A DNA stretch of 47,676 nt from Candidatus Nitrosopelagicus sp. (lineage in GTDB: Archaea > Thermoproteota > Nitrososphaeria > Nitrososphaerales > Nitrosopumilaceae), in NCBI GenBank assembly GCA_028345575.1, contig JAOMDR010000010.1, positions 1-47,676 of the forward strand. Direction: 5' to 3'. Shown here piece after piece: positions 4,702 through 8,464 of the stretch. The stretch's first letter is position 1, and each line of letters starts with the position of its first letter. The notes under the pieces were generated by a model, which saw nothing but the letters and a program-made list of their open reading frames with translations, was not told the DNA's origin and did no database searches. Made by a program: the position numbers and the translations under genes.

Positions 4702-5253
4702 ATGATTGATTTAGTTGCTAAGGAGTTATTTCTTACACGAGGTATTGGTGTTCATGAAGACAAACTTACAAGTTTTGAATATGCACTACGTGATGCAGGA
4801 ATTGCCGGAACAAACATCGTTTTAATCTCTAGTATATTTCCGCCAAAAGCAAAACTCATTCCTAAAAAGGAAGGTTTGAAGAAGATTAAACCTGGACAAA
4901 TTCTTTTTACAATTTATTCTAGAAATCAAACAAATGAACCTCATAGAATGATCTCTGCATCTGTTGGTTTGGCATTACCAAAAGATCGTACTAGATATGG
5001 CTACTTATCCGAATATGATGCATTTGGACAAAATGAAAAACAAGCAGGTGATTACGCTGAAGATATTGCCGCACAAATGCTTGCATCATCACTTGGAATA
5101 CCTTTTGATATTGATAAAAGCTGGGATGAAAAAAGACAACAATGGTCGATTTCTGGAAAAATTTACAAATCTCAAAATATTACCATGACTGCTAAAGGTG
5201 ACAAATCTGGAAAGTGGACCACGGTATTTTCTGCAGCCTGTTTAATTCTCTAA
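4702..5253 (+). CDS. pdaD: Pyruvoyl-dependent arginine decarboxylase
   Basis: The 183-residue protein matches the PdaD family over its length. The proenzyme self-cleaves between two serines; here Ser43-Ser44 in NIVLISSIFPP is the expected site, leaving the pyruvoyl group on the new N terminus of the alpha chain. Other family segments are HRMISASVGLALP and the QAGDYAEDIAA helix. It converts arginine to agmatine, the first step of archaeal polyamine synthesis. It lies 25 nt after the peroxiredoxin gene, and its stop interlocks with that of the convergent surface-protein gene in a 4-nt overlap. Confidence 0.92.
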   Translation: MIDLVAKELFLTRGIGVHEDKLTSFEYALRDAGIAGTNIVLISSIFPPKAKLIPKKEGLKKIKPGQILFTIYSRNQTNEPHRMISASVGLALPKDRTRYGYLSEYDAFGQNEKQAGDYAEDIAAQMLASSLGIPFDIDKSWDEKRQQWSISGKIYKSQNITMTAKGDKSGKWTTVFSAACLIL

Positions 5254-6476
5254 CGTTTTGGTTTGTATCCTTTTAGATAAAATATTGCAGCACCAATACC
5301 TATTACAATTATGATTGCAAGCACCGCATATTGAGATTGATCATCTCCGGATTCTTTCTTTCCAAAGTCTTCTATTGATTGGTATTCGTCATCATTCTGT
5401 GGAATGTCTTCTACTGAATAAAATGACAGTTCGCTGTTACCATCCCATGATCCTATCTCTACTCTTAATTCATCTTGAGGAATAACTTTACTTTGACCAA
5501 ATAGGAATTTTGCATCAATTGAGTTTCCTGCAGGAGAGCTAAAGAACCAACCTCTTTTTGAAATATTCTCTAATGTGGTTAAATCAGTTATTGCATGTGT
5601 TGCTATTGTATCTATTTTTGCAGGTTCACTTGGAATTACTACTAAATGAATGACTGAATTTAGCGGAACATTTTTTCCATCAAATACATCTGAGCGTGAA
5701 ATTTCGTTTACTCCAAAGTTTTCTAGTACGTTAATTCTTGAAATTTCATCAGCTACCTCTTTCATTTCGTTTGTCACCTTGAAAATGAATAAATTTTCAT
5801 CTCCAGTTTTTATAATGCTAATGGAAATTATTGATTCATCATTTTTTGATAATTTTTTTGAAATATCATAGAAACCTTGTCCATCTCTAATTTCTTTACT
5901 GATTAATTTCCCTGCCAAGTCTGTAAATAAGAAATCAGTTGATTGTTTTGGCATGATAAATGTGGCTGAAACTGCGCCTCTTCCAGAAATTACACCTGAT
6001 GTTTCTAGTAATAGATTTGCATCATCTACTGTATGTATGAATGTGGAATGAAATTCACTTTCTACTCCTAATATTTGATTTAAGTCATTAATTATTTCAT
6101 TTCCCATCTCTCTTGCAGAATCTTGAACCATTCTGATCCCGCCATCACCTTTCAATTGTTGATAATCAAAATTAATCATTATACATTGTTCCTCACTTGT
6201 TACGCCTATCACACATTCTCCTGCATTTGTAAATACCACAGCTCTAATTTTCTCATTATCATTTATTTTTTGGATTAATTCGTCTGTAAATTTTATTTCT
6301 TGATTATCTGTAGTTTCTAGTCCGATTGAGGTTATTATTGAATTTGAATATTGTTGATCATAAATTACAAGTGCACTTTCTTGAAATGTGGCCTTTTCAA
6401 ACAACTGTCCGCTTGCAAATGGTATCATGAGCATTATCCCAAAAATAACTCCAAGTGGAAGTAATTTTCTTTGCAT
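5250..6476 (-). CDS. Secreted, C-terminally anchored surface protein, function unknown
   Basis: The 408-residue protein has an N-terminal signal peptide (MQRKLLPLGVIFGIMLM, then PFASGQ), a large extracytoplasmic region, and a C-terminal hydrophobic helix (about residues 383-401) followed by a basic KGYKPKR tail. The arrangement places the main domain outside the cell, tethered by the C terminus. A Ser/Asp/Gln-rich linker precedes the anchor. No domain is recognised. Its promoter region is the 6477-6694 interval, which also holds a GC-rich hairpin. Confidence 0.8.
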   Translation of the reverse strand: MQRKLLPLGVIFGIMLMIPFASGQLFEKATFQESALVIYDQQYSNSIITSIGLETTDNQEIKFTDELIQKINDNEKIRAVVFTNAGECVIGVTSEEQCIMINFDYQQLKGDGGIRMVQDSAREMGNEIINDLNQILGVESEFHSTFIHTVDDANLLLETSGVISGRGAVSATFIMPKQSTDFLFTDLAGKLISKEIRDGQGFYDISKKLSKNDESIISISIIKTGDENLFIFKVTNEMKEVADEISRINVLENFGVNEISRSDVFDGKNVPLNSVIHLVVIPSEPAKIDTIATHAITDLTTLENISKRGWFFSSPAGNSIDAKFLFGQSKVIPQDELRVEIGSWDGNSELSFYSVEDIPQNDDEYQSIEDFGKKESGDDQSQYAVLAIIIVIGIGAAIFYLKGYKPKR

Positions 6477-6578
6477 GAAACATGAAACTTGTATTATTTT
6501 ATTTAGTTTACTGCTTCATGCTATAACGTTTAAATCACTAATCAAATTTTGCATAATTGACATCGAATTCAAACCGTT

Positions 6579-6623
6579 GGGGAACACGCTGGCAGTCCGA
6601 TGGCTCGGGCTGCCAGCCCCACA
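6579..6623. other. GC-rich stable hairpin in intergenic DNA, candidate structured RNA
   Basis: In otherwise AT-rich DNA, arms 6589-6600 and 6605-6616 form a 12-bp stem (one G-U pair) around a four-base loop TGGC. Outside it, GGGG (6579-6582) can pair with CCCC (6617-6620), leaving six unpaired bases on the 5' side. ACA follows directly at 6621-6623 on the plus strand, recalling an H/ACA guide 3' end, but no kink-turn or two-sided guide pocket is apparent. Strand and function are undetermined. Confidence 0.5.
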
Positions 6624-6649
6624 TTTTAATTATAATTTAGATAGTCCTA

Positions 6650-6685
6650 TCACTTTTTGATATGAATAAATCCAATCTGCCAGAA
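6650..6685 (-). pseudogene. Decayed tandem copy of the pepF 3' end
   Basis: Just past the peptidase stop (6695) and in the same frame, the minus strand encodes FWQIGFIHIKK followed by a stop. The true C terminus has FWQSGFDYIKK 69 nt (23 codons) upstream. Both the DNA and the frame match, so this is a remnant of a tandem duplication of the last 23 codons, or of a formerly longer C terminus. Confidence 0.55.
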
Positions 6686-6694
6686 TTTCAGTAA

Positions 6695-8464
6695 TTATAA
6701 TTTGGCCAGATCGTCTACTTGTTTTTTGATATAATCGAATCCACTCTGCCAGAATTTTGCTTTAGAAATATCCAGTCCGTGTTCTTTTAGCAGTTTTTCA
6801 GGTTTTTGTGAACCACCTGCAGATAAAATATCTGTGTATGTTGAGACAAAGTCATCCCCTTCATTTTTGTATGTCTGGAATAATGACACTGCAAGTAAAT
6901 TGCCAAATGAATAAGAATAGCAGTAAAATGGTGAATGGTAAAAATGTGGAATACAACTCCACTCTATTCCAAAATCATCTGAAATATCTACTGAATTTCC
7001 AAATTGTTCTTTTAGATTTTTTCTATAGATATTTGATATGTCATCAACTGTTATAGAGTTTGCAATTTGGTTGTGGGCTTCAATTTCAAATAATGTGAAA
7101 AATGATTGTCTTCCAATTGTTGCATAGAAATCATCTATCTTATCTGAAAGCATACTGGCTTTTTCACCATCTGAGATTTGATTTGAAATGTTATCGTAGA
7201 GTAATAATTCTGAATATGTAGATGCAGTTTCTGCAAGAGGTAATGGTGCATCTGAAACTAGAATTGATTTATCAGATGCTGCAACACTATGTACTGCATG
7301 TCCAATTTCATGAGCTAGTGTAAACACATCTCTTGATTTTCCTGTATAATTAATTAGAACAAATGGTGTGATGTATGGAAGTGGAGTACTACAGAATGCC
7401 CCATCTCTTTTTCCATGTCTTAATGAATAGTCTATGTGATTTTCATTAAAAACCCGTGATGCATATTCTGCAATTTTTGGACTGAATCTATTAAGAGAAT
7501 CAAGAACAAGTTTTGTTCCTTGATCAAATGTGTAATTTTTTTCTGCTGCACTCTTTTTTGATGGTGCATACAAATCATACCTCCTAAGTTTCTTTACTCC
7601 TACACGTTTTGCTTTTTGTTGGAAATATTTTTGAAATACAGGTGCGTTTTTTTTACACACCTCTAACATAACCTCTATTGTTTTATCATCTACATCATTT
7701 GAAATATTTTGAATTGAAATTGGATTCTTAAATCCTCTCATATCCATTCCTTCATTTTTCCAATTTAGTACAATATTCTGATAAATCTGACCAATTACTC
7801 CTTTATTATCTTGGTATTTTGTTAATAGTGATTTGTAAGCTGCCTCTCTAATTTTTGGATTTTTATTTCTTACAAGTGTTGTAAGCTGTTCTCTTCCCAT
7901 TGTCTTTTTTTTACCATTAACACTTACAGTATAGGTAAACGCATTTGTTATTTTATCATAAATTTTCACTAGTGCAGAAATTCCTGTAACATCCAAAGTA
8001 TTGATAATTTTTTCTTCAGGCTCTGTTAATGCATATTTTGCTACTAGTCTCTTATATCGTAAGTAATCTGATAATTCACCTGCATCTTTAATCAATCTCT
8101 TTGCATTTTTCTCATCTACTTGTTTTTTCCACCATAAATCAAAAAATAGCATCTTATTTTCTATGGTTGAGCCAAATTGAGAAATTCTATTTAGTAGTGC
8201 TGTTGCCTCATCTGATTGGGTATTTTCTGAAAACTTTAATCCTGCATACCCTCCAACCTTACTTGCTTTTTCTGTTATATCTTCAATTTCATGTAGTAGC
8301 TGTAAAAATTTCTTAGATGACATATTTGGTTTTAATTGAGATTTATTTTTTGCAAATTTTTCAGACTGTCTTTGTATCTCATTAATTTTCTTATCGAATG
8401 TCTGTCTAGTTGGATTCTTGACCAAATCATCAAGATCCCATATGCCTTTTTTGTAATTTTGCAC
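6695..8464 (-). CDS. pepF: M3-family oligoendopeptidase F
   Basis: The 589-residue cytoplasmic metallopeptidase carries the zinc motif HEIGH at about residues 385-389, followed by the downstream glutamate in PLAETASTYSELLL, both typical of M3B (PepF/thimet-like) enzymes that cut short peptides. The N-terminal helical region and length fit the family. It probably recycles peptides from protein turnover. The last residues are FWQSGFDYIKKQVDDLAKL; an in-frame partial copy of this end lies beyond the stop. Confidence 0.92.
   Translation of the reverse strand: MQNYKKGIWDLDDLVKNPTRQTFDKKINEIQRQSEKFAKNKSQLKPNMSSKKFLQLLHEIEDITEKASKVGGYAGLKFSENTQSDEATALLNRISQFGSTIENKMLFFDLWWKKQVDEKNAKRLIKDAGELSDYLRYKRLVAKYALTEPEEKIINTLDVTGISALVKIYDKITNAFTYTVSVNGKKKTMGREQLTTLVRNKNPKIREAAYKSLLTKYQDNKGVIGQIYQNIVLNWKNEGMDMRGFKNPISIQNISNDVDDKTIEVMLEVCKKNAPVFQKYFQQKAKRVGVKKLRRYDLYAPSKKSAAEKNYTFDQGTKLVLDSLNRFSPKIAEYASRVFNENHIDYSLRHGKRDGAFCSTPLPYITPFVLINYTGKSRDVFTLAHEIGHAVHSVAASDKSILVSDAPLPLAETASTYSELLLYDNISNQISDGEKASMLSDKIDDFYATIGRQSFFTLFEIEAHNQIANSITVDDISNIYRKNLKEQFGNSVDISDDFGIEWSCIPHFYHSPFYCYSYSFGNLLAVSLFQTYKNEGDDFVSTYTDILSAGGSQKPEKLLKEHGLDISKAKFWQSGFDYIKKQVDDLAKL

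Follow-up and report, generated by a model that had tools for sequence, protein, structure and literature searches.

The RNA gene and its hairpin

The hairpin described here lies at 6588–6617 on the forward strand of the window (the whole stretch of 47,676 nucleotides that was analysed, from contig JAOMDR010000010.1 of Candidatus Nitrosopelagicus sp.), and it forms the 3′ half of a free-standing gene for a small RNA, which occupies 6559–6627 on the same strand. The inferred transcript is about 65–70 nt long and starts at G6559 (+1), and the matches of the covariance model span exactly these bounds. From 5′ to 3′, the gene consists of a single-stranded and almost invariant arm (GACAUCG..UUCAAACCG..GGGGAACA), the hairpin and a T-rich end; promoter, arm and hairpin are conserved as one unit in two families. 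The stem is formed by 6588–6599 (GCTGGCAGTCCG) and 6606–6617 (CGGGCTGCCAGC), which make 12 pairs including one U-G and enclose the loop ATGGCT (6600–6605), replaced by RTGCGT in many other genera. In relatives, the stem is continuous over 11–13 bp, and the hairpin is longer in the second family (f8). When the hairpin segment is folded as RNA of the forward strand, its energy is −29.8 kcal/mol (z −4.0 to −4.4), and none of 200 shuffled sequences was equally stable. The segment 3′ of the stem (6618–6627), which is T-rich in 134 loci, is probably the end of the transcript; it was not flagged in a scan for sigma-type terminators.

The hairpin is real and under selection. Double changes in the stem amount to 93 cells in 49 sequences and to 101 cells in 20 sequences, with none of 500 shuffles reaching the covariation score, and in each family every one of the 13 main-helix pairs has changed on both sides. 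The stem contains 56 G-U cells against 5 A-C cells; since G-U variants prevail over A-C ones, the forward strand is the structured RNA.

The original prediction held that the stem was unlikely to be random and hinted at a non-coding RNA, and both views are borne out by the stability relative to shuffled sequence and by the compensatory stem changes, which it had proposed to look for in relatives and which proved to be strong. A direct check of the sequence also located the 12-bp stem and the ACA behind it (6621–6623) where they had been described; this ACA is present in the window but lost in many relatives. The boundary of 6579–6623 does enclose the hairpin but is too narrow, the conserved unit being 6559–6627 plus the promoter at 6525–6536. 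Similarly, the proposed outer GGGG/CCCC pairing is possible in the window, where GGGG (6579–6582) is able to add 3–4 pairs with CCC(C) at 6617–6620 across a one-sided bulge, but it is not general, with pairing in 60% of its cells in a set dominated by f8. GGGG is kept in relatives which have lost CCCC at the foot of the hairpin, so its conservation is not owed to the outer pairing. The conserved 5′ arm, overlooked at that time together with its complementarity to rRNA, appears clearly to be the functional centre of the RNA. Two other structures were considered and rejected: a repeat element, as the RNA has a single copy in its own genome, and a conserved 5′ mini-hairpin (CGAA/UUCG, CGAU/AUCG), which only part of the family has.

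Promoter and gene neighbourhood

A BRE/TATA box (AACGTTTAAATC) is located at 6525–6536 of the forward strand, with TTTAAAT at 6529–6535, 30 nt ahead of the inferred start. The promoter block from −34 to −23 is conserved in an alignment of 134 loci, with a TTTAAAT-like motif beginning at −30 in 107 of them, and the spacer from −22 to −3 (about 20 positions) shows almost no conservation. Behind it come T at −1 and, starting with G+1, a run without variation; the search pattern imposes part of this invariance of the core in the 134 loci, but it does not impose what is seen in promoter and spacer. The conserved block, the unconserved spacer and the T/G at −1/+1 thus correspond to an archaeal TATA promoter with its start site, and from this geometry we infer that the RNA is transcribed from its own promoter.

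Both genes flanking the RNA gene in the window are on the opposite strand. In every one of 28 Nitrosopumilaceae loci, the RNA gene points towards the 3′ end of a gene for an M3-family oligoendopeptidase, and in f8 the neighbours are different genes, one of them Alba-like by eye. Since the neighbours differ between the families, the RNA gene is free-standing, as would be expected for a trans-acting RNA. Two further observations concern the flanks. At 6626–6757, the end of the M3 peptidase gene (its last ~65 bp) is tandemly duplicated; one copy, which is degenerate, lies between the intact end of that gene and the RNA gene, and this duplication is also found in at least seven related genomes. 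On the other side, 5250–6476 of the reverse strand encodes a 408-aa protein with an N-terminal signal-like segment and C-terminal membrane segments (by eye), which adjoins the RNA gene in most Nitrosopumilaceae and has no Pfam and no NCBIfam match.

Distribution and losses

Of 31 genomes of the genus searched at the DNA level, 21 carry the segment in the corresponding position. With a covariance model built from six sequences, the RNA was detected in 172 of 200 Nitrosopumilaceae genomes, in 113 of the 119 good ones and in 21 of 22 genera. At least 119 matches came from a pattern scan that took one genome from each of about 85,000 species; among the matches listed, the names are thaumarchaeal or those of unclassified archaea, including Nitrosopumilus, Nitrosarchaeum, Nitrosotalea, Nitrosotenuis and Cenarchaeum. 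No viral contig matched the RNA pattern, and a viral origin of the RNA was rejected on this basis.

A wider covariance model, applied to more than 300 genomes of the order, revealed a diverged form of the RNA in the second family, f8, which is probably Nitrososphaeraceae and whose genomes are mostly 2–4 Mb. The f8 loci consist of TACATCGACCAAACCGAWGGGGAACA, then the longer hairpin, then a T-rich tail, with TTTAAAT upstream at about an equal distance. The other families of the order and phylum gave no convincing match by model or pattern, and a single weak model match in family f10 (G339, E 0.006) is probably due to chance.

The RNA gene can be lost, as it is absent from the short gap in two genomes (G027, G008) in which the M3 peptidase gene and the left neighbour are still adjacent. 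Clean losses in a sub-clade of the genus (L025 1540–1640, L028 1540–1640), with both neighbours kept, are natural deletion mutants, and such sister species make the function directly testable. Another Nitrosopumilaceae genus with 0.8 Mb genomes (g5: G034, G055, G070) has no detectable copy, and the 23S target is unchanged in the two of them that were checked. Since the RNA has been lost in some lineages while its target is unaltered, it is not essential everywhere.

Complementarity to the peptidyl transferase centre

The 5′ arm is antisense to the peptidyl transferase centre (PTC) of 23S rRNA, namely to 5′-CCCCGCGGUUUGG-UACC-UCGAUGUC-3′, which, counted from A2503, we take to be about 2481–2507 in E. 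coli numbering. The first pairing block (GACAUCGA, 6559–6566) is complementary to 23S UCGAUGUC (about E. coli 2500–2507) and the second (UCAAACCG, 6569–6576) to 23S CGGUUUGG. Between them, the linker AU (6567–6568) is variable, missing in f8, and faces the looped-out target UACC. The second block is followed by a variable linker of 2–3 nt (TT at 6577–6578; TTC, ATC, TA, AA, CA or AT elsewhere), then by the invariant GGGG (6579–6582), which would pair with 23S CCCC, its alternative partner being 6617–6620, and by AACA (6583–6586). In the latter, ACA is nearly invariant and lies 15–16 nt from the start of the second block in 170 of 172 loci; the preceding A may become G with ACA unchanged. The predicted pairing does not account for this near-invariant ACA.

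In most variants folded, the predicted pairing is 8 + 8 + 4–5 bp with UACC (about 2496–2499) looped out; the exceptions are Nitrosotalea-type arms, in which the predicted fold slides slightly, and f8, in which the first block is 7 bp. The duplex energies for three genera are −33.0, −32.5 and −32.4 kcal/mol, the cost of opening helix 89 being ignored in these values, and those of the f8 variants are −28.8 and −30.6 kcal/mol; the arms of the two families are homologous and so do not count as independent matches. Among 700 dinucleotide shuffles (mean −22.5, sd 2.0, minimum −30.5) and 1192 29-mers of the window, not one reached the observed energy, although the best unrelated GC-rich 29-mers come close, at −32.9. 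For each of three lineages, the arm was also moved along both strands of 14 to 47.7 kb of own or related DNA and along the rRNA region; apart from the gene itself, the PTC ranked first in each of them. In the lineage of the window, the PTC has −33.0 kcal/mol, and the next unrelated site in 47 kb has −23.9. Complementarity to 16S rRNA was considered as well and is weaker than that to the PTC site.

The variation of the arm tracks the pairing: paired positions are invariant, and the variable ones are mostly unpaired or wobble. For example, every locus has A or G at arm position 8, both of them able to pair with U, and in the f8 second block (CCAAACCG) a U-G wobble has become C-G. An exception is the U at +1 in f8, by which the terminal pair is lost. 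Of the 19 genomes in which the 23S target was checked, 16 have the identical sequence, some genomes where the RNA was not found among them, and covariation on the target side is impossible since the target itself does not vary.

The window also encodes RlmN, the 23S rRNA A2503 methyltransferase, at 1036–2097 on the reverse strand (TIGR00048 above cut-off), here in an archaeon; its occurrence in the family is patchy. A link with the RNA (4.5 kb away, with A2503 inside the target) was rejected, as RlmN is present in G002 and G105, where the RNA was not found, and absent from the RNA-bearing f8 genomes searched, where no match exceeded the cut-off and one was sub-threshold.

Relation to known classes of rRNA-pairing RNAs

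In a search of the window with Rfam 15, only two tRNAs were above the gathering threshold, and the best sub-threshold matches to the RNA were weak; no H/ACA family matched above threshold. The hint at an atypical H/ACA guide did not hold up as far as a classic H/ACA RNA is concerned, and the accompanying remark that kink-turn and two-sided pocket are missing is upheld in the hairpin of the window and of its relatives. The continuous stem has no internal pseudouridylation pocket, the loops RUGCGU or AUGGCU show on inspection of the alignment no paired GA/AG of a K-turn or K-loop, and the ACA 3′ of the hairpin is not conserved, CCCCATTTT or CGCTTTT taking its place in many relatives. With pocket, k-turn and conserved 3′ ACA all missing, a classic box H/ACA sRNA was rejected. 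What the RNA may share with archaeal box H/ACA sRNAs, in which 14–16 nt separate the target uridine from ACA (PMC7991803), is two arms flanking looped-out nucleotides and an ACA 15–16 nt from the inner end of the 3′ arm. However, it has no hairpin between the arms, and its ACA is 5′ of the hairpin, the remaining architecture being missing.

In the alignment of 64 sequences, inspection showed neither C (RUGAUGA) nor D (CUGA) boxes at conserved positions, and Rfam gave no C/D match. Among guide RNAs, snR4 and snR45 offer cytidines to Kre33, and H/ACA RNAs offer uridines to Cbf5. The bipartite antisense arms of snR4 and snR45 loop out rRNA nucleotides (PMC5464676), but these are box C/D RNAs with an 18S rRNA target, whereas the present RNA is without box C/D and has a predicted target in the PTC of 23S rRNA. 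The chaperone snoRNAs snR190, U3, U14 and snR10 pair with pre-rRNA and are proposed to guide folding rather than modification, snR190 acting in domains I and V near the PTC (PMC8536713). They are antisense to rRNA, as is the present RNA by sequence, and a folding role, which is predicted here, is likewise proposed for them; yet they are eukaryotic box C/D or H/ACA RNPs, while the present RNA is built of a single arm and a single hairpin, with neither set of boxes. In archaea, rancRNA_s194 of Haloferax volcanii binds to the large subunit and is an inhibitor of peptide bond formation in vitro (PMC6104027); it is also intergenic and linked to the large subunit, a likeness by description, and direct antisense pairing with the PTC is what is predicted for the present RNA. 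Since the RNA fits the definition of neither known class of small RNAs that pair with rRNA, and the open-access literature searched yielded no report of it or of any prokaryotic RNA antisense to the PTC, it would belong to a new class, with a function predicted from its sequence.

Possible functions

The reading that we favour, with a probability of roughly 0.55, is that of an rRNA-pairing small RNA of a new class which acts on the large subunit as an assembly chaperone or placeholder, the pairing step included. The stand-alone gene would give rise to a trans-acting RNA of about 68 nt, whose single-stranded 5′ arm would pair, in 23S rRNA, with helix 89 on its 3′ strand and with the peptidyl transferase ring, UACC being looped out, and whose 3′ hairpin would terminate and protect the transcript. 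In vivo, the RNA would bind nascent or immature large subunits, hold the catalytic centre open or prevent its misfolding, and be displaced late in assembly. In the mature subunit, the 23S strand concerned belongs to helix 89 and the catalytic ring and is mostly buried; since the pairing is incompatible with folded helix 89 and active centre, immature subunits would be the likeliest partner.

The same burial weakens the idea that the pairing takes place on mature or recycling 50S subunits, where translation would be tuned or silenced (hibernation, growth-rate control). This is rather unlikely, even though the predicted target is the catalytic centre itself, the RNA is dispensable in some lineages and rancRNA_s194 provides an archaeal precedent (PMC6104027); near-universal presence and a constant promoter suit a housekeeping use equally well.

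It is quite improbable that the RNA guides a chemical change in the looped-out UACC, with the two 8-bp arms offering the loop to an enzyme. A bipartite pairing that loops out 4 nt in nearly all variants would fit, such guidance outside the H/ACA class has a precedent (PMC5464676), and in 170 of 172 loci ACA is separated from the inner end of the 3′ pairing arm by a distance within the archaeal H/ACA range (PMC7991803). Nevertheless, C/D boxes, H/ACA pocket, k-turn and an upper stem between the arms are missing, four nucleotides rather than two are looped out, and UACC precedes UCG, so that there is no CCG acetylation context. A specific form of this idea, equally hard to credit, is a box-less third kind of archaeal rRNA guide, in which the arms would loop out about U2496–C2499 and the fixed ACA would recruit the modifying enzyme; if true, it would be a stripped-down relative or analogue of H/ACA guidance directed at the catalytic core.

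That the RNA is an ordinary regulator acting in trans on one or several mRNAs, and that its match to rRNA is accidental, is more doubtful still. RNAs of this kind are typically built of a conserved single-stranded arm and a terminator-like hairpin, but mRNA-targeting arms usually drift, whereas this arm is near-invariant across two families and varies at the sites that are unpaired with 23S rRNA; besides, the second-best site in 47 kb is weaker by 9 kcal/mol. Finally, a bidirectional terminator or 3′-end element of the convergent peptidase gene, which the orientation towards that gene in 28 of 28 loci would suit, or a leader of the neighbouring surface-protein gene, as once suggested, can practically be dismissed: the leader is ruled out by strand and synteny, with both flanking genes on the other strand and different neighbours in f8, and both readings fail since they leave unexplained the arm, superfluous for termination, and the own TATA box at a fixed distance, apart from the G-U bias that marks the forward strand.

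Significance

Few cells in sea and soil are as abundant as those of ammonia-oxidising archaea, and the RNA is near-universal in two families of them, yet outside every Rfam family. Were the rRNA pairing accidental, it would instead be a new family of ordinary archaeal small RNA. As a small RNA antisense to the catalytic centre of the ribosome and outside both known rRNA-pairing classes, it would add a new way for RNA to control ribosome assembly or activity.
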